A stretch of DNA of 64,000 nt, taken from contig JAUNLT010000006.1 of the NCBI GenBank assembly GCA_030532135.1, positions 25,228 through 89,227 of the forward strand, read 5' to 3'. Shown in pieces: positions 45,055 through 63,435 of this stretch (positions are counted from its first letter, which is position 1; each line of letters begins with the position of its first letter). This DNA is from Lagierella massiliensis. Lineage in GTDB: Bacteria; Bacillota; Clostridia; Tissierellales; Peptoniphilaceae. The notes beneath the pieces were generated by a model. That model ran no database searches. It saw only the letters and a list, made by a program, of their open reading frames with translations, and was not told where the DNA came from. Both the position numbers and the translations under genes were made by a program.

Positions 45055-46003
45055 AAAAATTGTAATTGGAAATTTAGAATTAAGAAATAATTTATTTATG
45101 GCTCCTATGGCTGGAATAACGGATAGAGCATTTAGGGAAATTGTTACAGAATTTGGATCAGGACTTAATTTCACCGAGATGGTATCAGCTAAAGGACTTT
45201 TCTATAAGGATAAAAACACAAAAAGGCTTATGGATAGGGGGAAAGAAACCAATTTAAGTATTCAAATTTTTGGAAGTGATCCTAAAATAATGGGAAATGT
45301 AGTTAGAGAATATATTAACGATGATGAGAGATTTCAAGCTGTTGATATTAACATGGGTTGTCCTGCACCAAAAATTGTAAAAAACAATGATGGTAGTGCA
45401 CTTATGAAAGATTTACCCCTTGCAGAAAAAGTTATAACCGAGGTTGTAAAAAACTCAAAAAAACCCGTTAGTGTCAAATTTAGACTAGGATGGGATGAAG
45501 AAAGTATTAATTATTTAGAACTTGGTAAAATTTGTGAAGAGTCAGGCGTATCATTTGTAACTTTACACCCTAGAACAAGAAAAGCTTTTTATTCAGGTAG
45601 AGCAGATTGGGAAGCAATCGCAAATTTAAAGAGTAGATTAAAAATACCTGTTATAGGAAATGGTGATGTTAATTCTCCAGAAGATATTTTAAATATGTTC
45701 AAATTTACAGGATGTGATGGAATATCTCTTGCTAGGGGAGCTTTAGAAAATCCATTCTTATTTAATAGGCAAGAAAAGCCGGAAATGTCTAAAATTTTAG
45801 AACTTATAATAAAACATTTAAATCTCAAGTGTCTATACTTAGGAGAAAAAGTAGGCGTAACAGAGATGAGAAAGCATATTAATTGGTATTTAAAAGGGTA
45901 TAGAAACTCTAAAGAGATTAAAAATGAAATTAATAAAATTACATCTAAAATTGAAGTAGAGAAAATTTTAAAGGATTATTTAGAAGAATATAATGAGAAA
46001 TAG
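45035..46003 (+). CDS. dusB: tRNA-dihydrouridine synthase
   Basis: An FMN-dependent enzyme reducing uridines in the tRNA D-loop, 322 residues. Signatures are LFMAPMAGITDRAFR, the active-site DINMGCPAPKIVKNNDGSAL with the catalytic Cys, VKFRLGWDEES and VIGNGDVNSPED. It is the last gene of the ftsH-coaX-dusB run, and its stop codon lies in a terminator stem. Confidence 0.93.
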   Translation: MKKTLNKKIVIGNLELRNNLFMAPMAGITDRAFREIVTEFGSGLNFTEMVSAKGLFYKDKNTKRLMDRGKETNLSIQIFGSDPKIMGNVVREYINDDERFQAVDINMGCPAPKIVKNNDGSALMKDLPLAEKVITEVVKNSKKPVSVKFRLGWDEESINYLELGKICEESGVSFVTLHPRTRKAFYSGRADWEAIANLKSRLKIPVIGNGDVNSPEDILNMFKFTGCDGISLARGALENPFLFNRQEKPEMSKILELIIKHLNLKCLYLGEKVGVTEMRKHINWYLKGYRNSKEIKNEINKITSKIEVEKILKDYLEEYNEK

Positions 46004-46027
46004 GATTAATTCTATTTCTCATTTTTT
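45992..46027 (+). terminator. Intrinsic terminator after dusB
   Basis: AATGAGAAATAG and CTATTTCTCATT form a 12-base perfect stem with an 8-base loop, followed by T6. It includes the dusB stop and separates the core genes from the selenoprotein operon. Confidence 0.9.
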
Positions 46028-46059
46028 GTATAAGAAAAATAAATAAATAACAGAATAAT

Positions 46060-46087
46060 TTGACAGATATAAAATCTGTCTTATAAT
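46060..46087 (+). promoter_or_regulatory. Promoter of the sao operon with operator-like dyad
   Basis: TTGACA (46060-46065) and TATAAT (46082-46087) with a 16-base spacer. A dyad GACAGAT (46062-46068) / ATCTGTC (46074-46080) fills the promoter, a place where a repressor would block RNA polymerase. It does not match the MerR operator at 51733. The start codon is 44 bases downstream. Confidence 0.8.
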
Positions 46088-46130
46088 TGTATAAGGAAAC
46101 TTTTTTAATAAATGGAAAAGGGTGTACATA

Positions 46131-46394
46131 ATGAATAGAGTTTTAGTTGAATTTATAAATACTTGACCAAGTTGTGACTCCATAGGGAGAAATGTCAAGG
46201 ATGTGGCAAAAGAATTTGGTGACAAGGTAGAAGTGAAAATTTACAATCAAGGAAAAGATATGGTTTCTTTACAAAAGTATGGGATGGTGTTTCAAGGAAC
46301 TATGATCATAAATGAAAAGAAGAAATTAACCAAGTTAAGTCTTAAAAATATTAGAACTGAAATTGCTCAAGCTGTTGAGGAACTGGATGGATAG
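46131..46394 (+). CDS. saoT: Thioredoxin-like selenoprotein SaoT (UGA = Sec12)
   Basis: An 87-residue thioredoxin-fold protein if TGA at 46164-46166 is read as selenocysteine. The redox motif is then T-Sec-P-S-C at residues 11-15, where relatives have CPxC. The rest (DVAKEFGDKVEVKIYN; MVFQGTMIINEK) matches a small thioredoxin/redoxin fold with its cis-Pro region altered. Without Sec the ORF would stop after 11 codons. A hairpin CTCC-ATAG-GGAG starts 11 nt after the UGA. AAAGGGTG precedes the ATG. It is first in the operon and probably reduces or carries metal for the other Sao proteins. The gene name is recalled from the SAO locus. Confidence 0.9.
46178..46189 (+). promoter_or_regulatory. SECIS-like hairpin for saoT
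   Basis: CTCC (46178-46181) and GGAG (46186-46189) pair around loop ATAG, 11 nt after the UGA. An outer UGAC/GUCA helix (46175-46178, 46194-46197) is an alternative extension. A loop G at this distance fits SelB recognition. Confidence 0.7.
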
Positions 46395-47169
46395 AGCTAA
46401 ATTTAATAGGCTCTATTTAAATCTTATTTTATTTATTATCATTTTTGCATTTATAGGTATAATTTTAATTTCTGATAATAGATCCAGAGAAGGGGCATTT
46501 AGAATTGGTGCAGGGGATGGTTTTGCAAGTTCAATAGTAAATAAGGTATTGGATAGTGAAAGTTTTGACTTTGACATAGAGACCTATTATATACAGGATT
46601 GTTGAGCTCCTACAGCTCAATGGTCATTGAAATCGGATGTATATGATATTGCAGTAATTTGTACTGATGCTGTTGATAAATTTATAAATGAAACAGAAGA
46701 ATTTGTAATAATTGGTGTGATAACTGAAAATACTGATGTTTTATTAAGAAAAGAAGGTAGTGGTAATAAAATAGGAGTTACAAATAATAAGTACATTTTA
46801 AAAGATTTAGTTGAAAATCTTTACGACAATAATGTTGATGTAGAGTTTATGTCTCCCCACGCTTTTCCATATGCCTATGAAACTAATCAAATAGATGGAT
46901 TTGTTATAGATATAGCATTGCTTAATTCGAGTTTAGAAGGAGAACTGGTAAATTTGTCTGATGGAGACTATGATTCAAATGTAATAATTGCAAATAAAAA
47001 AATAATAAAGGATTATAAATTTAAGAAGTTTATAAAAGCTTATAATAATATGGTTTTAGATTATAATGATAATCCAAAAGAGGATTATTTTGATTATAAA
47101 TTTGGAGAATATGAAGGGAGGAAAAGTGTTTGGAAAGTAAAGTTGAACCAAGTAAATTTAAAAAAATGA
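46387..47169 (+). CDS. saoB: ABC substrate-binding-like selenoprotein SaoB (UGA = Sec73)
   Basis: A 260-residue protein if TGA at 46603-46605 is Sec, giving Cys72-Sec73 in YIQDC-U-APTAQW. An N-terminal membrane anchor (about 8-28) is followed by a periplasmic-binding-like fold (FRIGAGDGFASSIVNKVL; YDIAVICTDAVD; FMSPHAFPYAYETNQIDGFVID). The frame before and after the UGA joins without shift. A SECIS-like hairpin starts 11 nt downstream. ATG at 46387 overlaps saoT and follows GAGGA. The vicinal Cys-Sec pair on the outer face could bind a soft metal and pass it to the SaoP permease. Confidence 0.88.
46617..46630 (+). promoter_or_regulatory. SECIS-like hairpin for saoB
   Basis: TCAAT and ATTGA pair over 5 bases around loop GGTC, starting 11 nt after the UGA. 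The GG in the apical loop is the expected SelB contact. A competing 7-bp stem TTGAGCT/AGCTCAA (46602-46620) includes the UGA itself. Confidence 0.75.
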
Positions 47170-47930
47170 TGGAGTCGGATACTTTTAAACAAAATATTTA
47201 TAAGTATGTATTTCTATTGATACTTTTGATAGTATGGCAAATAGCTTCGAAAAATATTGGAATACCACTATTATTGCCAACTCCAAAATCTACATTCACG
47301 GAATTTTTTGCAAATATAACTAATAAACAAGTTATGCTCAATGTTGGAATAACAATGTCAAGGGTACTTCGCGGTTGGATGATTGCGGTTATGATAGGTG
47401 TTCCTATTGGTATGGCCATGGGATTATCTAAAATTTTTGAAGGAATATTTGGTGGAGTAGTAAACTCTCTTAGACAAATTCCTATGATGGCATGGGTACC
47501 ATTATCTATTATTTGGCTTGGCATTGGTGATGGACCTACACTTTTTATGATTGCATTAAATGGTGTTTTCCAAGTGGTTATGAATACTTCTTCAGGCGTT
47601 GCTTCAATAGATAAAGACTACTATAATGCAGCAAAGAGTATGGGTGCTTCTAAGATAAGTACTTTTTTCCACGTTGTGTTACCTGCATCATTACCACATA
47701 TTTTGGTTGGTGCTAGACTTGCCATAGGAGCAGGCTGGATGTCTGTTATCTGAGCGGAGTTCATCGCGACAAGTGCTGGTATTGGATATGAAATGATACA
47801 AGCACAATCTATGATGCAGACCAATAGGTTATTGGCACTGATGATGTTATCAGCCTTAATAGGCTTTGTTTTAGATAGGTTTTTGTTATTACTTAACAGA
47901 AAACTTACAAGTTGGAGGTACATAAGTTGA
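47130..47930 (+). CDS. saoP: ABC transporter permease selenoprotein SaoP (UGA = Sec208)
   Basis: A BPD-type permease of 266 residues, resembling TauC/SsuC, if TGA at 47751-47753 is Sec. The N-terminal helix region, IGVPIGMAMGLSKIF, QIPMMAWVPLSIIWLGIGDG and the EAA-loop NAAKSMGASKISTFFHVVLPAS are all present. Sec208 falls in GWMSVI-U-AEFIATSAGIGY, a position usually Ala in relatives, inside a membrane helix after the EAA loop. Read-through restores the normal C-terminus (IGYEMIQAQSMM...). The start is TTG after GGGAGG. The stop overlaps the saoA start. A Sec inside a transport path suggests direct metal contact. Confidence 0.88.
47772..47783 (+). promoter_or_regulatory. Possible SECIS hairpin for saoP (weak)
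   Basis: AGTG and TATT can pair (with G-U pairs) around loop CTGG, about 18 nt after the UGA. It is weaker and farther than the other four; coding constraint in this conserved helix may limit it. The true element needs folding analysis. Confidence 0.35.
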
Positions 47931-48700
47931 AACTAGAAGTTAAAAACATTTCCAAGGCATTTAAAGAAAATCAGGGATTAAAAGTAGTGTTAGATAACGT
48001 CAGTTTCAATGTTGAAGAAGGAGAAGTGGTTACTTTACTTGGTCCTTCAGGATGTGGAAAAACTACTATGTTGTCTATAATTGCAGGATTTAAAAAACAG
48101 GATAGTGGAGAAGTACTGTTAAATGGACAGCCTGTAAAAGAAGCGGGTCCAGATAAGGCATTTATGTTTCAAAATTATGCGCTTTATCCATGGAAGACAA
48201 TTGAAAAAAATATATTATTTCCCATGAAACAAGCTAAGATGACAGATGAAGATCAAAATAAGAGACTTGATTATTTATTAAACATTTCTAGACTTGAGGA
48301 GTTTAGACAATACTATCCGCATCAGATTTCTGGTGGGATGAAACAAAGGACAGCTCTTGTTAGGGCGTTAGCTGTAAAACCAGAAATTCTTTTAATGGAT
48401 GAACCTTTAGGTGCTCTTGATATAGAGATGAGACAGAGTTTGCAAGATGAACTGTTAGAGATTTTTAGAAATGAGAAATTAACTGTAATTATAGTAACTC
48501 ACGATGTAAGTGAAGCTATATATTTATCAGATAGAGTAATTTTAATGTCCACTAATTATGGAGAGATTATTTTAAATGAAAAAATTGATTTGCCTGCGCC
48601 TAGAAATCCAAAGGATGAAAAGTTTAAAGAATATGTGGGACTATTATCAAATAAATTTATAGAAGCAGGTAGTAGAAAAAAGACTATGAAAGAGAAATAG
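47927..48700 (+). CDS. saoA: ABC transporter ATP-binding protein SaoA
   Basis: The ATPase of the importer, 257 residues, in the nitrate/sulfonate/taurine-type group. Walker A is LLGPSGCGKTT, the Q-loop MFQNYALYPWKT, the signature ISGGMKQR (Ser-Gly-Gly kept), Walker B ILLMDEPLGALD and the H-loop VTHDVSEA. TTG at 47927 is chosen because GGAGG is 8 bases upstream and the start overlaps the saoP stop by 4 bases. No in-frame UGA. Confidence 0.92.
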   Translation: MKLEVKNISKAFKENQGLKVVLDNVSFNVEEGEVVTLLGPSGCGKTTMLSIIAGFKKQDSGEVLLNGQPVKEAGPDKAFMFQNYALYPWKTIEKNILFPMKQAKMTDEDQNKRLDYLLNISRLEEFRQYYPHQISGGMKQRTALVRALAVKPEILLMDEPLGALDIEMRQSLQDELLEIFRNEKLTVIIVTHDVSEAIYLSDRVILMSTNYGEIILNEKIDLPAPRNPKDEKFKEYVGLLSNKFIEAGSRKKTMKEK

Positions 48701-49321
48701 ATGAAAAGAAAGATAGATGTAAACAAAGTTGAAAACAATGAAGAAGTTTTAAATTCTAAAGAGAGAGAAGATAGAATTAGTATTTTAAATCTAATGGTAA
48801 ATGAAAAAGGACCACTTCCATTAGACAAGTGTAGGGAATTTGAGACTTTGGACCAATTGATTGAAAAAGGGAAGTTAGTATTAAATGAGGATAAAACCGA
48901 GATTAATTTTGCCTATCCCATATCGGGATTACCTACTTCTCACAAGGTTACTTTAGCAGATGGTAGAGAGTTTCATTCCATGTGTGCAATAGACTCTTTG
49001 GGATCTTATTTTACTTTTTGGCAAGACTTAGAAATAAATTCCACATGCTCTGTATCGGGAGAGCCTATTAAAGTCGTTGTTAAAGACGGAAAAATTAGTG
49101 ATGTCAACAATCCTAATATACACTGTATTCATGTGGATTTAAATGAGTTTGAGGATTGGTCTGCATCGTGCTGAAATGTCATGAACTTTTTTCAGGATGA
49201 AAAAATGATGGAAAAATATTTTAAAGATAACAATCTTGATCAGGATACAACTTACGGACTAGATTTAGAAAAGGCTTTACAAGTAGGTAAGAAAATATTT
49301 TATAGTGAGGTTTTAAAATGA
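48701..49321 (+). CDS. saoL: MerB-like organomercurial lyase selenoprotein SaoL (UGA = Sec158)
   Basis: A 206-residue alkylmercury lyase relative if TGA at 49172-49174 is Sec. MerB catalysis uses Cys96, Asp99 and Cys159 (R831b numbering). Here Cys95 and Asp98 are in MCAIDSLGS. The C-terminal motif, read as SASC-U-NVMNFF, corresponds to FCCHVHFF or FCNEVHFF of MerB; anchoring on FF puts Sec158 at the Cys159 position, with Cys157 beside it. The rest of the MerB C-terminus (LEKALQVGKKIF) lies after the UGA. A strong SECIS-like hairpin starts 12 nt downstream. It should break a carbon-metal bond inside the cell. The stop overlaps saoD as ATGA. Confidence 0.9.
49187..49205 (+). promoter_or_regulatory. 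SECIS-like hairpin for saoL
   Basis: TTTTTTC (49187-49193) and GAAAAAA (49199-49205) form a 7-bp stem with loop AGGAT, 12 nt after the UGA, with GG in the loop. Confidence 0.75.
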
Positions 49322-49650
49322 GAGTAGCATATGTAGTTAGTTCAGTAAATTCTAGAAAGATTCTAAGGGATATGATTATTCCTCAAATGGAATCGGGAGA
49401 ACATGTAGCAGATGTTGTGGGTATGTTTTTTGTGTTTGATAATACTTTTATGCTTTTAGATGATACGGATTTAAGTTCGAGAATTCAAAAGTTAGTAGAT
49501 GAAAAAGATTTGGTAGTTTTAGCTTGTGATCAATGTGTGTATGAAAGAGAAATAGAGAACAAACTTATAAAAGGAGCTCATATTGGTTGTTTCCCAATGT
49601 TGTACGGGCTTTTAAAAGATGCAAACTTAGATCAAGTTATTACAATCTAA
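49318..49650 (+). CDS. saoD: DsrE-like protein SaoD
   Basis: A 110-residue protein of the DsrE/DsrF sulfur-relay type fold: MRVAYVVSS, VVGMFFVFDN, LVVLACDQCVYERE. Cys70, Cys73 (CDQC) and Cys91 could carry sulfur, selenium or a metal. The ATG overlaps the saoL stop, so the two are tightly coupled, and it may receive the metal released by the lyase. A hairpin follows the stop. Confidence 0.78.
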   Translation: MRVAYVVSSVNSRKILRDMIIPQMESGEHVADVVGMFFVFDNTFMLLDDTDLSSRIQKLVDEKDLVVLACDQCVYEREIENKLIKGAHIGCFPMLYGLLKDANLDQVITI

Positions 49651-49658
49651 ATCTACTT

Positions 49659-49675
49659 AGCCGGTTAATCCGGCT
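49659..49675 (+). terminator. Hairpin between saoD and saoE
   Basis: AGCCGG TTAAT CCGGCT followed by TTTAAG. The T run is short, so partial termination or an mRNA stability element is more likely than a full stop. Confidence 0.5.
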
Positions 49676-49722
49676 TTAAGCACGCGAAACATTGAAGTTA
49701 GATTTAAGGTTTGGAGATAGAT

Positions 49723-50808
49723 ATGATAGATTATATTAAAGAAATTATTTTTAGATCGGTTGAGCTATTAAACGGAGCATCTTCATGGCTTGTATTTAGT
49801 TACATAATTGCGGGACTTTTAAGAAATATTATTTCTCCTGTAAGATTACAAAAATCTCTTGGGAACACAAAATTCTCTTCAATTTTGAAAGTAACAGGAT
49901 ATTCTATGTTACTTCCTGTTTGTAGTTGTGGATCGGTTCCTCTTGGAATTAGTTTATATTATTCAGGAGCATATGTAGGACCTACTCTTGCTTTTTTGGC
50001 TTCCTCTCCTGTTTTAAATCCTGCAGCATTAATTTTAAGTTTTGGACTCTTAGGAAAAGAGATTGCAATTATAAATATTTTTGCGGGTATTACACTACCC
50101 ATCATAATAGGAGTAATAGGTAATTTAATTGCGGGTAAGGAGCTTAGAAATGAAACTGTGTTTAATCAAATAAATCAAATGAATTTAGAAGATGAACAAA
50201 AAAAGAGTATAAAGACTAGAATTAAGGAAGGTATGGAGTGGGTTAGGAATGACTTTGCTCTTACTCTAAGCAAATACGTTATATATGGAATGCTTTTTGG
50301 TGGTTTTATTCTTACTGTATTTCCTGAATCATTTATACAAAAATATTTAGGAAATCCTGGACTTCTTTCGCTTTGGAATGTAGCTGTTTTATCTGCATTG
50401 ATGTATGTTTGTGCTGTGGGACATATTCCACTAATTGCAGCACTTATTGCTTCAGGAGCATCACCAGGAGCAGCCATTACATTTCTTATGGCTGGAGCTG
50501 CAACCAATATTCCTGAAATTATAAGTATTGGTAAAATGATAGGAAAGAGAACAGCTGCAACATACACAATTGTGATTTCAGGATATGCGATGCTAATAGG
50601 GTTATTTACAAATAAACTCTTGATGCCAGGATTTCAAAGACAGATGGAATATGACAAGGTTACAAATGCAATTAGTTATGCAAACCATGTGTTATTGTCT
50701 TTTCCAGATTGGGTTAAATACTTAAGTTCCTTAATTATATTTTATTTTTTCATGAAGTCAGTTTATTTTAAATTAAGGTCTTATTATTACGAAAGAAGAG
50801 AGAATTAA
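49723..50808 (+). CDS. saoE: Permease/efflux transporter SaoE (DUF318/ArsP-like)
   Basis: A 361-residue membrane protein of the DUF318/YraQ permease family, which includes ArsP (organoarsenical efflux) and putative copper/zinc exporters. Two repeats are visible, each ending in a proline/glycine-rich re-entrant segment: LLPVCSCGSVPLGISLYYSG with Cys67 and Cys69, and AVGHIPLIAALIASGASPGAA. About eight membrane segments. It is the likely export step for the cleaved metal or organometal. ATG at 49723 has GGAG 6 bases upstream. Confidence 0.82.
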   Translation: MIDYIKEIIFRSVELLNGASSWLVFSYIIAGLLRNIISPVRLQKSLGNTKFSSILKVTGYSMLLPVCSCGSVPLGISLYYSGAYVGPTLAFLASSPVLNPAALILSFGLLGKEIAIINIFAGITLPIIIGVIGNLIAGKELRNETVFNQINQMNLEDEQKKSIKTRIKEGMEWVRNDFALTLSKYVIYGMLFGGFILTVFPESFIQKYLGNPGLLSLWNVAVLSALMYVCAVGHIPLIAALIASGASPGAAITFLMAGAATNIPEIISIGKMIGKRTAATYTIVISGYAMLIGLFTNKLLMPGFQRQMEYDKVTNAISYANHVLLSFPDWVKYLSSLIIFYFFMKSVYFKLRSYYYERREN

Positions 50809-50814
50809 TTTAAT

Positions 50815-51294
50815 ATGGAAAAGTTAAAAAGTTCAGTACTTACTAAGTTTTTACTTTTAGTTATAGTGTTCTTTATAGGTTATTTAGGATACAGAAATAA
50901 TGTAAAGTACAATAAGGTAGACTTTGGAGTCGAGACAGATCACTATCTATTACAGGCTTTTTACGATAAATTTCCAGGTAAAGAAGTTATCAAATGTAGA
51001 CTTGGAGATGTTAATGGTGATGACAGAGAAGACCTAATAATTATTTTTAGAGAGACAAAAGATATAAATCACTTAATTGTAGCAATGGATTTGAATGAAA
51101 AAATATCATTTTCAGATCAGACTAGTGCACCATATGAAAATCAAAAAATTGAATTAAAAGATATAGACAATGAACCTCCAAAGGAATTCATCGTAAGTGG
51201 ATCTAAGAGAGGACAATACGGTTATGGAATATTCAGGATAGAAGATAAACATCTACACAATCTCTTTTCAGAGGGTATGGGTGTTTGCTGATAG
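50815..51294 (+). CDS. saoC: Cys-Sec-COOH selenoprotein SaoC (UGA = Sec159, then UAG)
   Basis: A 159-residue protein anchored by one N-terminal membrane segment (about 10-25). The body has CRLGDVNGDDREDLIIIF, a VCBS/EF-hand-like aspartate loop, and FIVSGSKRGQYGYGIFRIED. Codons 158-160 are TGC TGA TAG: if the UGA is Sec, the chain ends Cys-Sec and stops at UAG one codon later. A near-perfect SECIS-like hairpin lies 11 nt after the UGA, outside the coding region. Without Sec the protein would lose only its last residue, so nothing but the SECIS reveals it. The pair may be an external metal or redox site. Confidence 0.85.
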
Positions 51295-51302
51295 TGGATT
51301 TG

Positions 51303-51319
51303 TTACTTGGTTCAAGTAA
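51303..51319 (+). promoter_or_regulatory. SECIS-like hairpin for saoC, overlapping the merR ribosome site
   Basis: TTACTTG and CAAGTAA form a 7-bp perfect stem with loop GTT, beginning 11 nt after the UGA and wholly 3' of the UAG stop. Its last two bases are the first two of the AAGGAG ribosome site (51318-51323) of the next gene. Confidence 0.8.
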
Positions 51320-51328
51320 GGAGTTATA

Positions 51329-51724
51329 ATGCGAGTTAAAGAAGTAAGTGAGATAACAGGTCTTAGTGATTCTACGATTAGATATTATGAGAAAGAAAAG
51401 TTGTTACTTAATGTAACTAGATCTAAAAATGGTTATAGACAATATGATGATGAAGATGTTGAAGTGTTGCAATTTATAAAAAAAGCAAGAAATTTAGGAT
51501 TTAGACTTGAAGAAATTAAAGAGATAATTGCTTTAAAAAAGATGGGTAATTCCACATGTGATTATGTTACAAGTCATATGAGAAAAAAGATAGAGGAGAT
51601 TGATAAAGAAATAAATCGATTAAAAAATGAAAGACAACTTTTAGTTGACCATCTACTGGAAGGACATACAGTTAATTGTTGTAAAGGAAAATTTTGTCAT
51701 TACATTGAAGGAATTAATAAATAA
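51329..51724 (+). CDS. MerR-family metal-responsive regulator
   Basis: A 131-residue MerR-family activator/repressor: N-terminal winged helix (KEVSEITGLSDSTIRYYEKEKLL), wing (NGYRQYDDEDVEVLQFI), dimer helix (about 82-112), and a Cys-rich end. Cys77, Cys117, Cys118 and Cys123 resemble the Cys82/117/126 site of Hg-binding MerR. The gene ends just before a MerR-type operator at 51733, which is probably its target. It closes the sao operon. Confidence 0.88.
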   Translation: MRVKEVSEITGLSDSTIRYYEKEKLLLNVTRSKNGYRQYDDEDVEVLQFIKKARNLGFRLEEIKEIIALKKMGNSTCDYVTSHMRKKIEEIDKEINRLKNERQLLVDHLLEGHTVNCCKGKFCHYIEGINK

Positions 51725-51729
51725 TTAAA

Positions 51730-51761
51730 TTGACCTTAAAGCTAGCTTTAAGGTTTATAAT
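51730..51761 (+). promoter_or_regulatory. MerR-type promoter/operator of saoX
   Basis: TTGACC at 51730-51735 and TATAAT at 51756-51761 are 20 bases apart, longer than the 17-base optimum, as in MerR-activated promoters. A perfect 22-base palindrome (51733-51754; half-site ACCTTAAAGCT) fills the spacer. The geometry predicts repression without metal and activation when the regulator untwists the DNA. Confidence 0.88.
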
Positions 51762-51798
51762 AAAAACATACGAACATAAATATATTAGGAGGTTGTAT

Positions 51799-53049
51799 AT
51801 GAAAAGAAAATTACTTTCTTTAGTACTTATTTCTTCATTGATGCTTTCAGTAACAGCATGTAATAATGAAGATTCTATTTCAACAGGTGGACATAGTTCA
51901 TACGATGCAAAAGCAGAAGTAGCTAAGTATGATTTACCTGAGATACCAGAAGAGGACAAAAATTTTAAAATTCAAATGGGTTATAATGATTGCGATCATA
52001 TGGTAGGTTCAATAATTGGAGAAAAAACAGGTATATATGAAGCATTAGGATTAGATGTAACTGTTACAAAAACTAGTAATACCAATATTGCTCAAGCCAT
52101 GACCACAGGAGAAATGCATGTAGGTTATATGGGAGTTGAGGGAGCTTTACACGCTAGAAATGAGGGAGCTCCAATAATAATGGCGGCTGCAAACCACGTT
52201 GGAGGATCTAGTTATCTTGTAGTGTCAAATGATATAAAAGACCCTAAGGATTTAGTAGGTAAAAAGCTTGCTATTTCACAAGAACCTGAAAATAACCCTC
52301 AGTGGATTAAATGGGCAAATAGACTTGATATTCCAATAGAAAGAGAAAATTATGAAATTGTTGAAATGTCTCAAAAAGATGGACCGATGGCTTTAAAGAC
52401 AGGTCAAATTTCAGCGTTTTCATGTTGTGACCCTTACGCATCCCAAGCAGAATACGAAAAACTTGGACATGTAGTAGCAGTAGGTTGGGGAGGATTAGTT
52501 GAAGAAAATCAGGAAGACCATGACTATGGTTGGGGAATGTGTTGTATATACGGTATGAACGAAAACTTTAACAAAGAACACCCAGAACTTGCCCAAAGAC
52601 TATTGGTTGGACACGCACTTTCACTTAAGTACTTATATTCTCATCCATATAATGCATCTATGATGTTTGCTGAAGGGTTTGGAACTAAGCCTGAAGTTGG
52701 ACTTATGACAATATATATGAAGACCATTGCAGAAGGTAGAACTTTGACTTGGGAATTTAGTCAAGACAATATAGATAATTTTGTAGCAGAATATCAACAA
52801 TTTGATATTGATGAAAAATTCATTCCTAAGACTGATAAGATTGACGAGTTTGTAAGTTTGAATTTTGTGGAAGAATCAGGTATTGAAGACTTTGATAAAT
52901 TCCTTGAAGAAGGAAAAATAAATGAGCAATTTCCAATAGGTATAAGCTTTGAAGAATGGCTTAAGAAAGCAAAAGAAATTGATGGAATTAATAATGAAGT
53001 TGGAAATGACGTAAAAATTTCCGATGTATATAAAGAAATAGAAGAATAA
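51799..53049 (+). CDS. saoX: ABC substrate-binding lipoprotein SaoX
   Basis: A 416-residue NMT1/TauA-like binding protein. The signal peptide ends in lipobox VTAC with Cys21 lipidated, then FKIQMGYNDCDHMVGSIIGEKTGIYEALGLDV (here split: MGYNDCDHM, EKTGIYEALGLDV). Extra cysteines are notable: Cys65, a SCCDPYA pair and a MCCIYG pair, all placed where ligand could be held. It probably captures the organometal outside for SaoB/SaoP/SaoA. ATG at 51799 follows AGGAGG. Own MerR-type promoter and own terminator. Confidence 0.88.
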   Translation: MKRKLLSLVLISSLMLSVTACNNEDSISTGGHSSYDAKAEVAKYDLPEIPEEDKNFKIQMGYNDCDHMVGSIIGEKTGIYEALGLDVTVTKTSNTNIAQAMTTGEMHVGYMGVEGALHARNEGAPIIMAAANHVGGSSYLVVSNDIKDPKDLVGKKLAISQEPENNPQWIKWANRLDIPIERENYEIVEMSQKDGPMALKTGQISAFSCCDPYASQAEYEKLGHVVAVGWGGLVEENQEDHDYGWGMCCIYGMNENFNKEHPELAQRLLVGHALSLKYLYSHPYNASMMFAEGFGTKPEVGLMTIYMKTIAEGRTLTWEFSQDNIDNFVAEYQQFDIDEKFIPKTDKIDEFVSLNFVEESGIEDFDKFLEEGKINEQFPIGISFEEWLKKAKEIDGINNEVGNDVKISDVYKEIEE

Positions 53050-53054
53050 AAAAC

Positions 53055-53083
53055 AAGGAGATACCCTAGTATCTCCTTTTTTT
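53055..53083 (+). terminator. Intrinsic terminator after saoX
   Basis: GGAGATAC CCTA GTATCTCC followed by T7: an 8-bp perfect stem. Confidence 0.92.
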
Positions 53084-53170
53084 ATGCAAATAAAGATATT
53101 TAAAGAAAGTAAATTTTAATTACATTAAAATATTTGATATTATATAGATATAAATAATAAAGAGGTAAAT

Positions 53171-55285
53171 ATGAAAGAAGGAATTTGTGGTATTTGTCCA
53201 GGACAATGTCATATTTCAGTTAACATAGAAGATGGACAAATTAAAAAAATAAGAAAATCCAGTAAAAATTTTCCTAGTGCTCTTTGTCTTAGAGGATTTT
53301 ATTCCAATGAGATTTTAAACTCTCCAGATAGATTAAAGACTCCGCTTATTCGCAACGGTAAAAAGGGAGAAATTTGTTTTAGAGAAGCATCCTGGGAAGA
53401 GGCTATGGATTTAATTGGAAAAAAATACAACAAAATAATTAACGACTACGGAGGACAAAGTCTTACATCTATTGTGGGAAGAGGTGGATTTGAAAATTCC
53501 ACAGCGGACTTTGTAAACATAGAAAATGTAGGAGGACAAGAAATAGGATTTTTTGCTCCTGTAGGTTCCCCTAATAATGGCTCGGTTGGTTCTTTATGTT
53601 ATGTGTCATTTGGTATATTTGCTCCAATGCTAAATTTTGGAATAAAGGGAAATAGAATAATTCCTGATTATGAAAATGCAGACTATATATTTATTTGGGG
53701 AGGACATCCTCCAACTGCATCTCCTGCATCGGATTATGAAAGAATACTCAAGGCTAAAAAACAAGGAGCTAAAGTTATAGTAATAGACCATTATAAGAAC
53801 AGGATGTGTGAAGTTGCTGATAAGTATATTCTTATAAAATCTGGTATGGATGGTGTATTGATTCATACAATTATTAATTATTTACATTCAAAAAAATTTT
53901 TTGATATGAATTTTATAAATAGATACTGTCATGGATTTGATTCTTATGAAAATTATTTTAAAGACTTTGATTTAGATAGTTGTGAGAAAAGGACCGGTGT
54001 AAAAAAAGAAGACATTGAATTTTTATCAAATACTATAATGTTTAATAAATCTTGTTTAAAAACATATACAGGTTTAGAATACACAAATTCAGGCGTACAA
54101 AGTATAAGAGCACTTTATTTGCTTTGGTTTTTAACAGGGAATGTGGATGTAAAAGGTGGAATTCTTATTACGCCAGAAAATAAAAAGAAAAGAGTAAAGA
54201 CATTTCCATGTGATACTTATTGTAAAAGAATTGGTAGTGAAGAATTTCCGTTATTTGATAAGTTTTTAAAATCACCTCAATTAACACAACTTCCAAAGGC
54301 TATTTTAGAAGAAAAACCCTATGCTATAAAAGGTCTTTTATCTATTGGTTGTTGTATTTCTAGTGTATTTCCAGAGTCTAAGCTATATGAAAAAGCCCTT
54401 AAAAAATTAGACTTTTATGTAAGTATAGATAGATTTTTATCAAAAGATGCACTTTATGCTGATGTAATACTACCAGCAACTACTTATTATGAAGATGAAT
54501 CTTATTGTATTTACAAGGACAGAGTTGAATTGAGAAAAAGACTCGTTGAACCCATTGGACTTTCAAAGCCAAATATTCAAATAATGCATTTAATTGCAAA
54601 ATCTCTAGGATATGGATATGTATATCCTAAGGATGAAAAAGAATTATTAGAATATGCTTTTTATCACGAACCTAAAATATTAAAAGATTTAAATGAAAAA
54701 GGTGTGTCATATTTTAAAAAGTCTAATGATCTGTCTTACGAAAAATACAAAACCGGTAAATTAAGAAGAGATGGAAAAGATGGATTTCCAACACCTACAG
54801 GAAAAGTAGAAATAGACTCTACTGTATTAAAATCATATGGGTATGAATCTTTGCCTAAGTTCATAATAAATAAAGAGTCTCTAGAGGGCGAAATGGAAAC
54901 TATAAAAAAATATCCTTTTGTATTAAATACTGGAGCAAGAATACAGTCTACATTTAGAACTCAGCACTTAAATATAAAGGAACTTTTAAAACATCAGGAT
55001 AGACCATATATTATTATGAATGAAGAGGATGCTAGGGAGAAGGGAATAAAAGATTTAGACAAAGTTCTTGTAAAAACTAAAAGAGGAGAGATTGAAGTAT
55101 TTGCAAGAACGGATAGAGAAATACCTAGAAAAGATACGGAATTAAACTTTGGAGGAGGAGGACCAATTCAGGGAAAGCACTGGAGGAATGCAAATGTCAA
55201 CACATTAACAGATAACTCCAACTTTGATGTAATTACAGGTTTTCCTGTTTTCAAACAACTTTTATGCCAAATTGAAAAAATATAA
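53171..55285 (+). CDS. Molybdopterin-dependent oxidoreductase
   Basis: A 704-residue DMSO-reductase-family catalytic subunit. Cys6, Cys9, Cys13 and Cys39 (CGICPGQC...ALCLRG) bind a 4Fe-4S cluster. GSPNNGSVGSLCYVSFG places Cys143 at the usual Mo/W ligand position of the thiosulfate/polysulfide reductase group. Further blocks are IFIWGGHPPTASP, LPATTYYEDES and the C-terminal MPT-binding FGGGGPIQGKHWRN. No twin-arginine signal is seen, so it is probably cytoplasmic. No electron-transfer or membrane subunit adjoins it. The substrate is unknown; a link to the neighbouring sao genes is possible but unproven. Confidence 0.85.
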   Translation: MKEGICGICPGQCHISVNIEDGQIKKIRKSSKNFPSALCLRGFYSNEILNSPDRLKTPLIRNGKKGEICFREASWEEAMDLIGKKYNKIINDYGGQSLTSIVGRGGFENSTADFVNIENVGGQEIGFFAPVGSPNNGSVGSLCYVSFGIFAPMLNFGIKGNRIIPDYENADYIFIWGGHPPTASPASDYERILKAKKQGAKVIVIDHYKNRMCEVADKYILIKSGMDGVLIHTIINYLHSKKFFDMNFINRYCHGFDSYENYFKDFDLDSCEKRTGVKKEDIEFLSNTIMFNKSCLKTYTGLEYTNSGVQSIRALYLLWFLTGNVDVKGGILITPENKKKRVKTFPCDTYCKRIGSEEFPLFDKFLKSPQLTQLPKAILEEKPYAIKGLLSIGCCISSVFPESKLYEKALKKLDFYVSIDRFLSKDALYADVILPATTYYEDESYCIYKDRVELRKRLVEPIGLSKPNIQIMHLIAKSLGYGYVYPKDEKELLEYAFYHEPKILKDLNEKGVSYFKKSNDLSYEKYKTGKLRRDGKDGFPTPTGKVEIDSTVLKSYGYESLPKFIINKESLEGEMETIKKYPFVLNTGARIQSTFRTQHLNIKELLKHQDRPYIIMNEEDAREKGIKDLDKVLVKTKRGEIEVFARTDREIPRKDTELNFGGGGPIQGKHWRNANVNTLTDNSNFDVITGFPVFKQLLCQIEKI

Positions 55286-55308
55286 ATAACTGATAAAGGC
55301 TTATTTCT

Positions 55309-55336
55309 TGACTTATTACAGGTTTTTTACTATAAT
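55309..55336 (+). promoter_or_regulatory. Promoter of greA-lysS
   Basis: TTGACT at 55309-55314 and TATAAT at 55331-55336, 16-base spacer. Confidence 0.75.
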
Positions 55337-55348
55337 TTGTGTAATGCG

Positions 55349-55378
55349 GCGAAAGAAGTCTTTCGCTTACTATTTTTT
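55349..55378 (+). terminator. Attenuator-like hairpin in the greA leader
   Basis: GCGAAAG AAGT CTTTCGC, followed by TTACTATTTTTTT and directly by the AGGAG ribosome site of greA. It lies after the promoter, so it would act as an attenuator in the leader. Confidence 0.6.
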
Positions 55379-55390
55379 TAGGAGTAAGGT

Positions 55391-55867
55391 ATGTCAGAAA
55401 AAGAGATTCTTTTAACAAAAGAAGGATTTAAAAAACTAGAAGATGAATTGGAATTCTTGAAAACTGTAAGAAGAAAAGAAGTTGCAGACAAGATTAAGGT
55501 TGCAAGAGGGTTTGGAGACCTTTCTGAAAATGCAGAGTATGATGAGGCAAAAAATGAACAGGCTCAAGTTGAAGATAGAATTCTAGTATTAGAACATATG
55601 TTGATTAACGCAAAGGTTATAAGCGACAACGATATAAAAACAGACACTGTAAGTGCAGGAGTTACTATAAAATTGGAAGATCTTGAAGATGGAGAAATTG
55701 AAGAATTTACAATAGTAGGTTCAGCTGAATCAGATCCTTTCAATGGAAAAATTTCCTATGAATCACCAGTAGGTAAATCTTGTTTAGGTAGAAAAAAAGG
55801 AGATACTGTAATAGTACAAACTGCAGGTGGAAGTTTTAATTACAAGATAGTGGATATTAAGAGGTAA
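55391..55867 (+). CDS. greA: Transcription elongation factor GreA
   Basis: Rescues backtracked RNA polymerase. The 158 residues form an N-terminal coiled coil (about 10-75) with the tip [12 protein letters not shown] and a C-terminal FKBP-like domain ([14 protein letters not shown]). It is 2 bases before lysS; greA-lysS is a common Firmicutes pair. Confidence 0.95.
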
Positions 55868-57981: not shown

Positions 57982-58752
57982 ATGGACTTTGACTATTTCT
58001 ACAACAGGGAAGCGGAGAGATTTAATTTTTTAAAAGTTCCGGAAATATTGGTCGATGGAGAGGATTTTAAGGGACTATCAGCGGAAGCAATCATTCTTTA
58101 CTCGATGCTTCTTAAACGGACAGGAATGTCTTTTAAAAACAATTGGATAGACAAAGAAGGCAGAGTCTTTATCTATTTCACGGTTGAAGAAATTATGAGA
58201 AGAAGAAATATCTCAAAGCCAACAGCTATAAAAACATTAGATGAGTTGGATGTCAAAAAAGGAATCGGACTTATTGAGAGAGTAAGACTTGGACTTGGAA
58301 AACCGAATGTAATTTATGTCAAAGATTTCATGAGTGTATTACAGATTAAAAAAATTGACTTCCGGAAGTCAGAAAAGTTTACTTCAGAAGTAAAAGACGT
58401 TGACCTCAGAAGTAAAGAAAATGGACTTCTAGAAGTTAAAAATATTGACTGTAACTATATAGAGAATAATAAGAGTAAGTATAGTAAGAGTGATTCTATT
58501 TGCATCAAAAGCGAATTCGGGACATTCCAAAATGTATTTTTAACAACTGAAGATATTTCAGATTTACAGATTGCACTATGCGGACAACTTGATAATTACA
58601 TCGAAAGATTATCTGCATATATCCAAAGCACAGGAAAAATCTACAAAGACCATAAGGCAACAATCCTTACTTGGTTTTATAAAGATCAAGGAAATAAGAA
58701 AACATCAAATATCCCTACTTTGGAAGAATATGATAAAGGAGAGCATCTATGA
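57982..58752 (+). CDS. RepA_N-family replication initiator
   Basis: A 256-residue plasmid-type initiator. Residues 1-100 are the RepA_N DNA-binding domain (FYNREAERFNFLKVPEIL; LSAEAIILYSMLLKRTGMS; RRRNISKPTAIKTLDEL, a winged helix). Residues about 120-155 are a variable linker. The C-terminal part (DNYIERLSAYIQSTGKIYKDHKATIL) is DnaD-like. Four palindromes lie in the linker coding sequence, the usual place of the origin in RepA_N plasmids. It could support replication of the excised circle. The next gene overlaps by 4 bases. Confidence 0.85.
   Translation: MDFDYFYNREAERFNFLKVPEILVDGEDFKGLSAEAIILYSMLLKRTGMSFKNNWIDKEGRVFIYFTVEEIMRRRNISKPTAIKTLDELDVKKGIGLIERVRLGLGKPNVIYVKDFMSVLQIKKIDFRKSEKFTSEVKDVDLRSKENGLLEVKNIDCNYIENNKSKYSKSDSICIKSEFGTFQNVFLTTEDISDLQIALCGQLDNYIERLSAYIQSTGKIYKDHKATILTWFYKDQGNKKTSNIPTLEEYDKGEHL
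58357..58436 (+). repeat. Four iteron-like palindromes inside the initiator gene
   Basis: ACTTCCGGAAGT (58358-58369), ACTTCAGAAGT (58381-58391), ACCTCAGAAGT (58403-58413) and ACTTCTAGAAGT (58425-58436). Centres are about 22-22.5 bp apart, near two helical turns. Start positions fall in different codon phases, so the repeat is kept at DNA level and not as a peptide repeat. Confidence 0.75.
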
Positions 58753-59600
58753 TGAGAGAATTAGAGAAAGTGATGATAGACGAGATAGAGTATACCTATG
58801 ATCCTGAAAAAGAGTATATAAAAGACGGACACGCCTATTGTAAAGTGTGCCATGAAAGAAAAGATGGGAAAGTCCTTGAACTATTCGGAAAAAAGATGCT
58901 ATTTAAAGCCTCGTGTAACTGTGATAGAGAAAGAGAAGCCAGAGAAAAAGAGGAAAAGAGAAAATCAGAAATAGAAAGATTAAAAATAAATTGCTTTAAT
59001 TCTCTTATTCAATGGACATACACCTTTGCAAACTATCAGGGAGAAGAAACTCAAAGTCTTATCATAGCCAAGAACTTTGTAAAAGATTATGAAACGATGA
59101 AAAAAGAAAATATAGGACTTTTATTCTACGGTTCGGTGGGAAGCGGAAAGACCTATCTTGCCTGTTCGATAGCCAATGCACTAATAGAGCGATATCAGGT
59201 AAGCGTTAAGATAAGGAATTTTGCACAGATTATCAATGAGTTGCAAAAGGGAGGGTTTGACCTTGATAAGAATGCCTATATTGAATCTCTTGTAAATACC
59301 TCTGTACTTATCTTAGATGACTTGGGGATAGAAAGAAATACAAGTTACGCCAAAGAGCAAGTGTACAACATCGTAAACAATAGATATTTAAAGCATAAAC
59401 CGACCATCTTTACCACAAATCTTTCCTATGACACTATTTTTAACTGTAAAGAGAGCGTTGAGTACCAGAGAATATATTCAAGAATTATAGAGATGTGTAT
59501 CCCTGTTATGGTAGTTGGAGAGGATTTTAGAAAAAATATCCAAAGGGATAAGTTGAAACGTAATAAGGAAAGATTACTTACAGGAGGTGAGAAAGCTTGA
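58749..59600 (+). CDS. DnaC/IstB-like ATP-binding protein
   Basis: A 283-residue AAA+ helicase-loader type protein. A zinc-finger-like region (YCKVCHERKDG; ASCNCDRER; about 30-60) is followed by a charged helix and Walker A LLFYGSVGSGKTYLA, Walker B VLILDDLGIER and sensor I IFTTNL. It probably loads a helicase at the element origin bound by the preceding initiator. ATGA overlap with the initiator; TTGA overlap with the next gene. Confidence 0.85.
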   Translation: MMRELEKVMIDEIEYTYDPEKEYIKDGHAYCKVCHERKDGKVLELFGKKMLFKASCNCDREREAREKEEKRKSEIERLKINCFNSLIQWTYTFANYQGEETQSLIIAKNFVKDYETMKKENIGLLFYGSVGSGKTYLACSIANALIERYQVSVKIRNFAQIINELQKGGFDLDKNAYIESLVNTSVLILDDLGIERNTSYAKEQVYNIVNNRYLKHKPTIFTTNLSYDTIFNCKESVEYQRIYSRIIEMCIPVMVVGEDFRKNIQRDKLKRNKERLLTGGEKA

Positions 59601-60082
59601 TTAACGAAGAAATTGCAAGAAAAACATTAAATATGGAGATAAGAGCTGCTAAAGTGACAGGAAAGACGCTCATGGATTTGTTAAAAAAACTGATGAAAGA
59701 GGCGAAAAAAAATGGAGGACTGGAAAATTTTATCAGTGAAAACGGAAATGAAGTTAAACTCAAAGATATGGTAAAAAAAGGGCAACTTGAGGAACTTAAT
59801 GTAAAAGACGATGAGTTAAAAGAGTTAAAAAAAGAACTCAATAAACACGGTGTGAAGTTTTCAATAATGCGAGATAAAGAGACAGGAAATCACTCCGTGT
59901 TTTTTCAAGCCAAGGATGTCAAGGTAATGGAACACGCTTTTAAGAAAGCAGTCAGCTGTTCAGAGAAAAAAGCTGATAGAAAAGAGTCTATTCACAAAAG
60001 TATCGAGAAGTTTAAGGAAATGGCAAAAGACACTATTTCCAAAGATAAGGTCAAGAATAAACAGAAGGAGCAAAGCTTGTGA
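59597..60082 (+). CDS. PcfB-family (DUF3801) protein
   Basis: A 161-residue, very Lys/Glu-rich protein. INEEIARKTLNMEIRAAKVTG and GVKFSIMRDKETGNHSVFFQAKD are the DUF3801 core; the last 45 residues are a basic, charged tail. In pCF10, PcfB joins the relaxase-DNA complex and presents it to the coupling protein PcfC. Here it lies directly before virD4. The start is TTG after AGGAGGTGA. Confidence 0.82.
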   Translation: MINEEIARKTLNMEIRAAKVTGKTLMDLLKKLMKEAKKNGGLENFISENGNEVKLKDMVKKGQLEELNVKDDELKELKKELNKHGVKFSIMRDKETGNHSVFFQAKDVKVMEHAFKKAVSCSEKKADRKESIHKSIEKFKEMAKDTISKDKVKNKQKEQSL

Positions 60083-61863: not shown

Positions 61864-61888
61864 ATCAAATTAGATTTACTGCTTTTTT
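61857..61888 (+). terminator. Intrinsic terminator at the end of virD4
   Basis: GCAGTA and TACTGC pair, with inner ATC/GAT, followed by T6. It includes the virD4 stop codon. Confidence 0.7.
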
Positions 61889-61908
61889 AATTTAAGAGGA
61901 GACAAGAT

Positions 61909-61965
61909 ATGAGAAGGATTAGAAGCCCTACTACAGCAAACAAACGAATAACAGCAAGTTCTTAG
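61909..61965 (+). CDS. 18-residue leader peptide candidate
   Basis: A short ORF, ATG at 61909 after AGAGGAGA, coding MRRIRSPTTANKRITASS, ending at TAG and followed immediately by a terminator hairpin. It lies between virD4 and the SSB-like gene. The arrangement ribosome site, short basic peptide, terminator, next gene resembles translational attenuation control. It is too short for homology claims. Confidence 0.4.
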   Translation: MRRIRSPTTANKRITASS

Positions 61966-61998
61966 CGATTGAAAACAATCATTCAGTCGCTTTTTTTA
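61966..61998 (+). terminator. Terminator/attenuator after the leader peptide
   Basis: GCGATTGA and TCAGTCGC form an 8-bp stem (one G-U) with a 10-base loop, followed by T7, just upstream of the ribosome site of the SSB-like gene. Confidence 0.75.
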
Positions 61999-62010
61999 TT
62001 GGAGGTAAAA

Positions 62011-62328: not shown

Positions 62329-62331
62329 ATA

Positions 62332-62547: not shown

Positions 62548-62558
62548 GGAGATAGTCT

Positions 62559-63422: not shown

Positions 63423-63435
63423 AAGAAAGGAAAAT

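Follow-up and report, generated by a model that had tools for sequence, protein, structure and literature searches.

A selenocysteine-assisted organometal (SAO) locus with a linked MerR-type regulator and candidate operator in Lagierella massiliensis

The window analysed here is a stretch of 64,000 nucleotides from Lagierella massiliensis. Nine SAO proteins and a MerR regulator are coded at positions 46131-53049, all ten genes lying on the same (+) strand. SAO (selenocysteine-assisted organometal) systems are widespread, selenoprotein-rich and found in anaerobes. The founding paper is that of Haft and Gwadz (2023, J Bacteriol 205:e00259-22); what is used of the system here comes from NCBIfam models and from papers that cite it. 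By NCBIfam's own Sao models, the locus is a member of this system, eight of the nine proteins passing their Sao cut-offs and SaoA falling short by 0.5 bit. The ten-gene SAO locus proposed for this place by an earlier sequence-only reading is thus confirmed, as is its remark that the family was not wholly new, since SAO is already known and has its NCBIfam Sao models.

The first gene, saoT (46131..46394), codes for a thioredoxin-like selenoprotein with a UPSC motif (NF040730, 113.2 bits for a cut-off of 65). It is followed by saoB (46387..47169), whose product is a substrate-binding-like selenoprotein with a DCU motif (NF040727, 175.5 bits, cut-off 140) and, by eye, a hydrophobic N-terminus. 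The ABC permease gene saoP (47130..47930; NF040733, 363.9 bits, cut-off 295) carries selenocysteine (Sec) in a SVIUAEF motif, and the ABC ATPase gene saoA (47927..48700) scores 359.5 bits with NF040729, slightly below the cut-off of 360, the next best NCBIfam family reaching 221.1. Then come the MerB-like lyase gene saoL (48701..49321; NF040728, 161.6 bits, cut-off 140; PF03243, 91.7 bits), saoD (49318..49650) for a DsrE-related protein (NF040732, 180 bits, cut-off 169), and saoE (49723..50808) for an ArsP_1-type efflux permease (NF040736, 488 bits, cut-off 325; PF03773). The product of saoC (50815..51294; NF040734, 165.2 bits, cut-off 80) ends in Cys-Sec-COOH. The MerR family gene (51329..51724; PF13411, PF09278), with cysteines C77, C117, C118 and C123, precedes saoX (51799..53049), which codes for a substrate-binding subunit with conserved C65, C210 and C249 (NF040735, 472.9 bits, cut-off 300). 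By eye, the start of SaoX is lipoprotein-like.

Upstream of saoT, a sigma-70-type promoter (46060..46087, + strand; TTGACA, 16-bp spacer, TATAAT) matches the consensus at 12 of 12 positions; promoter-like sites as a whole are not enriched in the stretch (49, versus 51.4 in shuffles). A perfect 7-5-7 inverted repeat lies inside this promoter (46062-46080); its dyad was not seen in congeners and it is not claimed as an operator. A terminator-like stem (53055..53078, + strand) closes the unit, 11 such sites being found in the stretch where 3.4 were expected. The ten genes had been described as one unit; this is better put as a single strand that probably has two promoters, because saoX is preceded by a MerR-type promoter of its own.

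Five of the genes contain one in-frame UGA each, in saoT (46164-46166), saoB (46603-46605), saoP (47751-47753), saoL (49172-49174) and saoC (51289-51291, with a TAG directly after), all on the + strand. These codons were compared across 87 SAO loci, from which one duplicate (L062 = L133) was left out of the Sec/Cys counts. The aligned columns hold 21 Sec and 55 Cys in saoT (76 sequences), 30 Sec, 51 Cys and one gap in saoB (82), 61 Sec and 26 Cys in saoP (87), 44 Sec, three Cys and one gap in saoL (48), and six Sec and 73 Cys in saoC (79). Thus, apart from two gaps, homologues have exclusively Sec or Cys at all five positions. Past the UGA, the reading frames run on and match homologues.

The host makes selenocysteine. 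Its genome contains selA (605, cut-off 268), selB (363 bits, cut-off 242) and a tRNA-Sec gene, selC, with anticodon TCA (69.6, cut-off 47), so that the absence of selB and selC, which had been named as an observation that would tell against Sec, was not what was found. No selD was found in the host assembly, which is 65% complete (best score 30.8, cut-off 125), and selD scores above its cut-off in four relatives. Taken together, the Sec/Cys exchange and the Sec machinery indicate that the five UGAs are Sec codons, as the earlier reading of these genes required. A general recoding of UGA can be ruled out, since UGA also ends saoB, saoP and saoL where their families end. That the five UGAs are ordinary stops in truncated or decaying genes is highly improbable: beyond the stops themselves, the missing selD and the mixed SECIS signals described below, nothing speaks for it, and the Sec/Cys-only columns, the frames matching homologues beyond the UGA, selA, selB and selC in the host and selD in four relatives all speak against it.

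Bacterial SECIS (bSECIS) elements are recognised by a hairpin, a G in its apical loop and the right distance from the UGA. When Sec forms were compared with control positions in the same genes, SECIS scores were higher for saoT, saoL and saoC, less so for saoB, and fell under the controls for saoP. The three Cys forms of saoL do not score below its Sec forms, and the scan within the window returned no SECIS for saoP or saoL. Downstream of the saoC UGA, the hairpin TTACTTG-GTT-CAAGTAA (51303..51319, + strand) is a candidate bSECIS located outside the coding frame. The folding z-score is below -1 in all six Sec forms of saoC (mean -2.36), compared with a mean of -0.24 for 74 Cys forms. The same hairpin could be a MerR-type promoter of merR (TTGTTA, 19, TATAAT in the window). 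However, the stem is present in the window and in its three nearest relatives, where the -10 element is not kept; a SECIS is therefore the preferred assignment for what remains a putative signal. The 3' arm of the hairpin overlaps the likely ribosome-binding site of merR (51318-51323).

The sequence-only reading had also called the saoL product a MerB-like lyase, and this description stands. In addition to the PF03243 match, the window copy has C95, D98, C157 and Sec158. An alignment of 35 sequences, namely the window copy plus 34 taken from the 43 SaoL proteins of named loci, shows C95, D98, C116, C157 and C/U158 to be invariant; they correspond to MerB C96, D99, C117, C159 and C160, respectively. 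With a structure model of SaoL, the first 11 structure matches are MerB and the following ones are unrelated. SaoL is thus a MerB-fold protein with the Cys-Asp-Cys triad of MerB (PDB 5C17, 3F0O). It differs from MerB in its low identity (16-21%) and in having a Sec where MerB has C160, directly beside the second catalytic Cys. As its scores lie below both NCBIfam MerB cut-offs (45.7 vs 193 and 43.7 vs 200), SaoL is a relative of MerB and not MerB proper.

Conserved Cys or Sec residues are also found in SaoX, SaoE, SaoD, SaoC, SaoT, SaoB and SaoP, along the path proposed below. The conserved positions of SaoX are Cys or Sec in 86 of 86 sequences, three Cys of SaoD are kept in 63 of 63, and a CxC and a further Cys of SaoE in 78 of 78; a fourth SaoE Cys, present in 73 of 78 sequences, is replaced by Ser in the window copy. 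SaoX, SaoP and SaoA belong to the class of nitrate/taurine-type ABC importers (NrtBCD, CmpB, TauABC), from which they differ by the conserved Cys of SaoX and by the Sec/Cys of SaoP at a position occupied by Ala in NrtB and CmpB. Six pattern matches to SaoX in viral contigs included no relative.

In its nine Sao families, and in having Sec in five genes at Sec/Cys positions of the respective family, the window locus resembles the SAO system as known from the NCBIfam models and citing papers; it differs in its linked MerR gene and operator. The locus had been held to be unusually complete. This is true of its Sec content, Sec occupying all five positions in only three of the 43 loci having all five genes; at the other extreme, 18 of 85 loci have Sec at none of them (Sec elsewhere in SaoT/SaoX being uncounted). 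However, nine-gene clusters are common, and a 2026 review ascribes six selenoprotein genes to SAO. The window locus rather seems to be a well-preserved copy of a known gene set, with a metal sensor and a switch of its own.

We propose the name SaoR for this SAO-linked MerR. Its relatives at E 1e-18 or better occur in 10 of the 249 genomes of the order, all of them SAO-positive, so that the regulator looks dedicated to SAO. C77, C118 and C123 are conserved in 10 of 10 sequences, and a Cys aligns with that of 4UA1. A Cys at the corresponding sensor position has been tied to +2 ions (PMC9909328), which suggests that SaoR keeps a metal site of the +2-ion type. The sensor need not read mercury, because it fails the MerR equivalog model (76.3 bits vs 150.85) and its Cys spacing (77, 118, 123) differs from that of Tn501 MerR (82, 117, 126; PMC9909328). 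Among the 25 of 27 NCBIfam matches listed for the protein, none is Sao-named.

A candidate MerR-type promoter/operator of saoX (51730..51761, + strand) consists of TTGACC, a 20-bp spacer with the palindrome ACCTTAAAGCTAGCTTTAAGGT, and TATAAT. It is the sole such site in its own assembly at up to three mismatches. At up to two mismatches, the 249 genomes contain 10 sites in seven genomes, all within or at most 2 kb from an SAO cluster; some relatives carry it in front of a CopZ-like gene as well. The locus thus has the two hallmarks of metal-sensing MerR proteins, a MerR helix-turn-helix with a Cys site and a palindrome in a 19-20-bp promoter spacer. As with MerR, CueR, ZntR and CadR, the palindrome lies within a 20-bp spacer and a Cys stands where +2-ion sensors have one; unlike them, SaoR has another Cys spacing and targets an importer subunit gene. 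According to PMC1526738, the 9-4-9 layout of the operator is that of Firmicutes MerR, whereas the palindrome, ACCTTAAAG-(4)-CTTTAAGGT, differs from the MerR, CueR, HmrR and ZntR signals described there.

From the gene set, the use of Sec, the SaoL active site and the association of regulator with operator, all present in the DNA, we infer a substrate, a direction of transport, an order of steps, ligand roles and an activation by the sensor. Most probably, the locus would serve to take up, cleave and export a mercury-like compound of a soft metal. Lying outside the membrane, SaoX and SaoB would capture this compound on Cys/Sec ligands, and SaoP-SaoA, an ABC importer of the nitrate/taurine class whose Sec occupies a position that is not normally a ligand, would carry it inward. 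SaoL, with its MerB fold, complete Cys-Asp-Cys site and neighbouring Sec, may then split the carbon-metal bond. The metal adduct could be handled or reduced by SaoT and SaoD and bound at the membrane by the C-terminal Cys-Sec of SaoC, and the freed metal would be exported by SaoE. The dedicated MerR-type sensor, through its +2-ion Cys site, would switch on saoX from the 20-bp-spacer promoter. We give about even chances to a thiol/selenol relay of this kind acting on a metal compound that is soft and thiophilic, with an organomercurial as the likeliest candidate. The Sao models, the Sec/Cys exchange, the Sec machinery, the MerB site, the conserved Cys/Sec and the confinement of MerR and operator to SAO all support it. 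It is weakened by SaoA lying under its cut-off, by the Cys that SaoE lacks, by the missing SECIS signal of saoP and by the occurrence of merR and operator in just 10 of 87 loci. Induction of an importer protein, unusual for a pure detoxification system, also counts against it.

The distribution of SaoL raises a second possibility. SaoB, SaoP, SaoA, SaoE and SaoC are found in 51 of 51 well-covered clusters, as is SaoX, through which the loci were found, whereas SaoL is present in 36 and absent from 15. Of the 15 genomes with SaoL-less clusters, 14 gave no match to SaoL, which weakens import, cleavage and export as a general account of SAO, although the window copy does have SaoL. In addition, one SaoL-less cluster (L072) retains merR and operator, hence a sensor kept without the lyase. 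The SAO core may therefore traffic an inorganic soft metal or a metal-thiolate complex, with SaoL as an optional extra by which metal is released from its organic compounds; regulators known to be related to SaoR respond to free ions (PMC9909328). This account appears clearly less probable than the relay, given that the window and most other copies retain SaoL with an intact MerB site, and that several of the records lacking SaoL come from drafts or metagenomes of unstated completeness. A related and somewhat more doubtful suggestion concerns one SAO branch within Tissierellales, which would form a genuine metal-responsive regulon under a dedicated sensor. SaoR would control SaoX, joined in some relatives by a CopZ-like iron-sulfur metallochaperone; metal-dependent acquisition, not simple defence, would be induced, and SAO would be a pathway for acquiring and processing metal, with carbon-metal cleavage optional. 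Because the candidate saoC SECIS hairpin of the window overlaps the saoR ribosome-binding site, selenium supply, by way of SelB occupancy, may also set sensor levels.

It is unlikely that the substrate is organoselenium (methyl-selenium), recovered to supply selenium for Sec synthesis. In PMC10418091, Sao genes and a dicubane cluster protein occur in clusters argued to serve methyl-selenium metabolism. In 23 of the 86 loci, HGD-D/double-cubane-type genes (28 copies) are no more than 400 bp from a sao gene, and nine loci have 12 copies at more than 2 kb; both of the two genes tested pass the NCBIfam double-cubane model. However, no such gene was found near the window locus, the 18 loci without Sec at the five positions fit poorly, the MerR has a +2-metal-type site, and a metal is the better match for both the efflux permease and the MerB-type active site. 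An organoarsenical or another metalloid is more improbable still. SaoE does belong to the ArsP_1 permease family (PF03773), but its NCBIfam matches are its own family and then, under cut-off, the SO_0444 Cu/Zn efflux family; moreover, the regulator is of the MerR type and no ars genes were recognised by eye among neighbour families of at least three loci.

With respect to the organomercurial relay and its alternatives, the dedicated sensor and operator offer a direct route to the substrate, as the metal to which the saoX promoter responds by way of SaoR is very probably what the system handles. Together with the +2-ion Cys site and the fold, triad and patchy presence of SaoL, they are what is added here to the known SAO system, and because SaoL is not present everywhere, the core part of SAO can be told apart. 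If methylmercury were the substrate, anaerobes with SAO would form a sink for it that has been overlooked. Among the papers listed by literature searches, which covered work other than the founding paper, none was recognised as a functional test of SAO; further papers searched for SAO passages gave citations or general selenium text.

Downstream of the unit lies a gene for a molybdopterin (Mo/W) oxidoreductase (53171..55285, + strand; PF00384; no NCBIfam model over cut-off). In 18 of the 86 loci, such a gene is found no more than 400 bp from a sao gene, and in two it is more than 2 kb away, matches at 400-2000 bp or under 90 bits being excluded. Replacement of SaoL by the double-cubane-type genes was considered and no association was found (p = 0.23 at 400 bp, 0.75 at 3 kb). 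Both accessories occur together in 0 of 51 clusters at 400 bp and in two of 51 at 3 kb (p = 0.045 and 0.038, uncorrected). The oxidoreductase was rejected as a tenth SAO gene and is at most a possible accessory that is not SAO-specific, because near relatives exist away from SAO; of nine such places examined, six are in genomes without a SaoE over cut-off. Three of these nine places adjoin a SaoX-like binding protein, two of them also with a permease and an ATPase.

Ten same-strand genes occupy positions 46131–53049 of the window, in the order SaoT, B, P, A, L, D, E, C, MerR and SaoX. Eight of the nine Sao proteins exceed the curated NCBIfam cut-offs, SaoA scoring 359.5 against 360, and the Pfam assignments are concordant (SaoL, MerB; SaoE, ArsP_1; SaoP and SaoA, ABC domains; SaoX, NMT1-type). 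The ten-gene locus of SAO type (selenocysteine-assisted organometal) proposed in the sequence-only reading is thus borne out, as is the remark that the family is not wholly new: the locus belongs to the SAO system already described, reportedly by Haft and Gwadz in 2023. A search of literature listings recognised neither a functional test of SAO nor a MerR dedicated to it. What we could not find described is the MerR-controlled form of SAO, the system itself being known. The closest relatives of the assembly holding the window (1.23 Mb, 65% complete, window on contig 3) among the genomes compared are Lagierella massiliensis (Tissierellales, Peptoniphilaceae) and Mediannikoviicoccus vaginalis, with SaoX identities of 77 and 75%. 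In total, 87 SAO loci were compared: the window, six loci from other genomes and, of 114 relatives located by way of SaoX, the best 80.

From its distribution, the regulator looks dedicated to SAO. With a limit of E 1e-18, which leaves out weaker MerR relatives, 10 of the 249 Tissierellales genomes searched contain a match to the window's MerR, one in each and always beside saoX; all ten belong to the 14 genomes with a SaoE over cut-off, the other four being without this MerR. The saoX promoter consists of TTGACC, a 20-bp spacer enclosing a 22-bp perfect palindrome, and TATAAT. Used as an operator pattern, it matches one site in its own assembly at up to three mismatches. At up to two mismatches, it matches ten sites in 7 of the 249 genomes, all inside SAO clusters or within 2 kb of them, against none for the reversed pattern. 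Among the 87 loci, the operator is found at up to four mismatches in all ten merR loci (three or four mismatches in the three nearest relatives), with no match in the remaining 77; at five or six mismatches, three further matches all fall in the same ten loci, with one control match. The operator lies between merR and saoX in the window and in the Lagierella, M. vaginalis and Parvimonas parva loci (L069–L071), and upstream of merR itself in six loci (L064, L067, L072–L075). A second operator precedes a gene for a CopZ-like 2Fe-2S protein, without mismatch in L064 (gene at 11205–11636), L073 (gene at 3626–4057) and L074 (gene at 3733–4156) and with five in L075 (gene at 11282–11773); the L073 protein passes the model for the Csac_0668 family of 2Fe-2S (seleno)proteins. 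In the Lagierella locus, a CopZ-like homologue at 16579 has no operator site among those listed.

A scan of 45900–55450 gave 49 promoter-like sites versus 51.4 in shuffles, and 11 terminator-like sites versus 3.4. Because of these counts, single sites are weak evidence, and the operator claim is based on the pattern searches of 87 loci and 249 genomes, not on single-site calls. An AGCCGG-TTAAT-CCGGCT stem between saoD and saoE (about 49660–49680) is not among the terminator-like sites that the scan reported. As for the ligand, MerR C77, C118 and C123 are kept in 10 of 10 sequences. The available part of one study ties the choice between +1 and +2 ions to the position of C77, which is Ser in CueR and Cys in CadR and ZntR (PMC9909328). 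Firmicutes MerR is described, in the accessible portion of another, with a 9-4-9 palindrome in a 20-bp spacer (PMC1526738), a layout identical to that of the saoX operator but with a different sequence. From the comparison of the conserved cysteines with these two sources, a +2 soft metal would be expected as the sensor's ligand.

The five UGA codons were read as Sec from the start, and the compared loci uphold this. Leaving out L062, a duplicate of L133, and including second gene copies within one locus, the five columns hold Sec or Cys plus two gaps, and no other residue: saoT, 21 Sec and 55 Cys (n = 76); saoB, 30, 51 and one gap (n = 82); saoP, 61 and 26 (n = 87); saoL, 44, 3 and one gap (n = 48); saoC, 6 and 73 (n = 79). 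Sec occupies all five positions in 3 of the 43 loci having all five genes, namely the window, Lagierella and P. parva. In M. vaginalis (L041/L070), a frame shift, through decay or sequencing error, splits saoL, and the remaining sao genes look whole. Six selenoprotein genes are credited to SAO in the part available of a 2026 review (PMC13188914), whereas SaoX of the window is a Cys form. In 20 SaoT sequences, Sec stands two residues downstream, directly before the second Cys (CxUC instead of UxxC), a shift of Sec inside one active site.

The search for selA/selB/selC/selD proposed earlier succeeded in part: selB and tRNA-Sec are found in the genome carrying the window, with selA and glycine/sarcosine-reductase genes near them, but selD stays under its cut-off (30.8 vs 125), though a selD with one in-frame TGA is found in four relatives. 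The shortfall is likely due to missing sequence. Folding of candidate SECIS elements gave mean z-scores of −2.36 for Sec forms versus −0.24 for Cys forms in saoC and −0.86 versus 0.06 in saoT; the signal is strong in saoL (−1.63, with just three Cys forms for comparison), weak in saoB (−0.30 versus 0.31) and absent in saoP (0.02 versus −0.29). A loop-pattern scan against same-gene control positions agrees with folding for saoT, saoL and saoC, less so for saoB, and places saoP under its controls. It gives the three Cys forms of saoL scores at least as good as those of the Sec forms, and within the window it gave no candidate for saoP or saoL. The candidate saoC SECIS overlaps the likely merR ribosome-binding site (51303–51323), an arrangement that might tie production of the sensor to the availability of selenium.

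In SaoL, C95, D98, C116, C157 and C/U158 are invariant in 35 of 35 aligned sequences (the window and 34 of 43 from named loci; nine were excluded, one of them the split gene) and align, in MerB structures, with C96, D99, C117, C159 and C160. A structure search with the AlphaFold2 model of SaoL (mean pLDDT 92.4) returned MerB as its first eleven matches (E 6e-12 to 3e-8), the next best having E 0.87. By these residues and matches, SaoL retains the MerB active site and fold, with a feature of its own, Sec158, at the place of MerB C160 and adjoining the second catalytic cysteine. SaoL falls under the cut-off of the NCBIfam MerB models; its identity as a MerB-like lyase stands on the Pfam match, the aligned residues and the structure matches, lyase activity being predicted. 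Once short rows and L062 are dropped, conserved Cys/Sec number three in SaoX (86/86, one being Sec in 6), three in SaoB (81/81), two in SaoC (79/79) and two in SaoT (76/76), with three conserved Cys in SaoE (78/78) and in SaoD (63/63). The Sec/Cys position of SaoP aligns with alanine in NrtB and CmpB. The pattern fits a relay in which a soft metal would be handed between thiols and selenols of the handling proteins. A fourth Cys, conserved in 73 of 78 SaoE, is Ser in the window's saoE (49723–50808).

The gene content of the loci bears on the substrate. In 51 loci, the cluster has more than 3 kb of sequence on either side. With presence judged by our own HMMs and thresholds, all 51 contain SaoB, P, A, E and C, and also SaoX, through which the loci were found; SaoT occurs in 49, SaoD in 42, SaoL in 36 and merR in 9. 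A SaoL model search of the 15 genomes with these SaoL-less loci, all of unstated completeness and some of them metagenome assemblies, gave no match in 14 and a partial one under cut-off in the other. Strains among the 15 include Thermosyntropha lipolytica, Pelotomaculum propionicicum and Fretibacterium fastidiosum, the last with a record title that reads 'complete sequence', and the SaoL-less L072 retains merR and the operator. The import/export part thus seems, from gene content, useful without the lyase, and SaoL-less loci weigh against a simple organometal account of SAO. Organoselenium stays a rival substrate because the available part of PMC10418091 connects methyl-selenium gene clusters with both Sao genes and a dicubane protein. 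HGD-D genes lie less than 400 bp from a sao gene in 23 of 86 loci, and both HGD-D proteins of L073 exceed the cut-off for double-cubane reductases; the window's SAO locus has no HGD-D gene. HGD-D/double-cubane-type proteins are seen near SAO clusters in 37 of 87 loci (e.g., L060, L064, L067, L072–L074, L081, L082).

Just 3' of the terminator-like stem after saoX, a molybdopterin (Mo/W) oxidoreductase (53171–55285) exceeds no NCBIfam cut-off. Among 86 loci, 18 have a homologue of it less than 400 bp from a sao gene and 2 have one at a distance of over 2 kb, and the subfamily is also found away from SAO, sometimes adjoining SaoX-like binding proteins. A double-cubane-type protein and this oxidoreductase occur together within 3 kb in just 2 of 51 loci. 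At 15048–19280, 27 kb from SAO, a 1410-aa protein whose acyl-CoA dehydratase activase domain exceeds its cut-off is a possible partner of double-cubane proteins. Positions 57982–64000 look like the beginning of an integrated conjugative element, with a DnaC/DnaI-like ATPase (58749–59600) and a VirD4-like CD1115-family protein over cut-off (60079–61863). The window's only Rfam match over gathering score is a ribosomal protein L10 leader (29946–30066).
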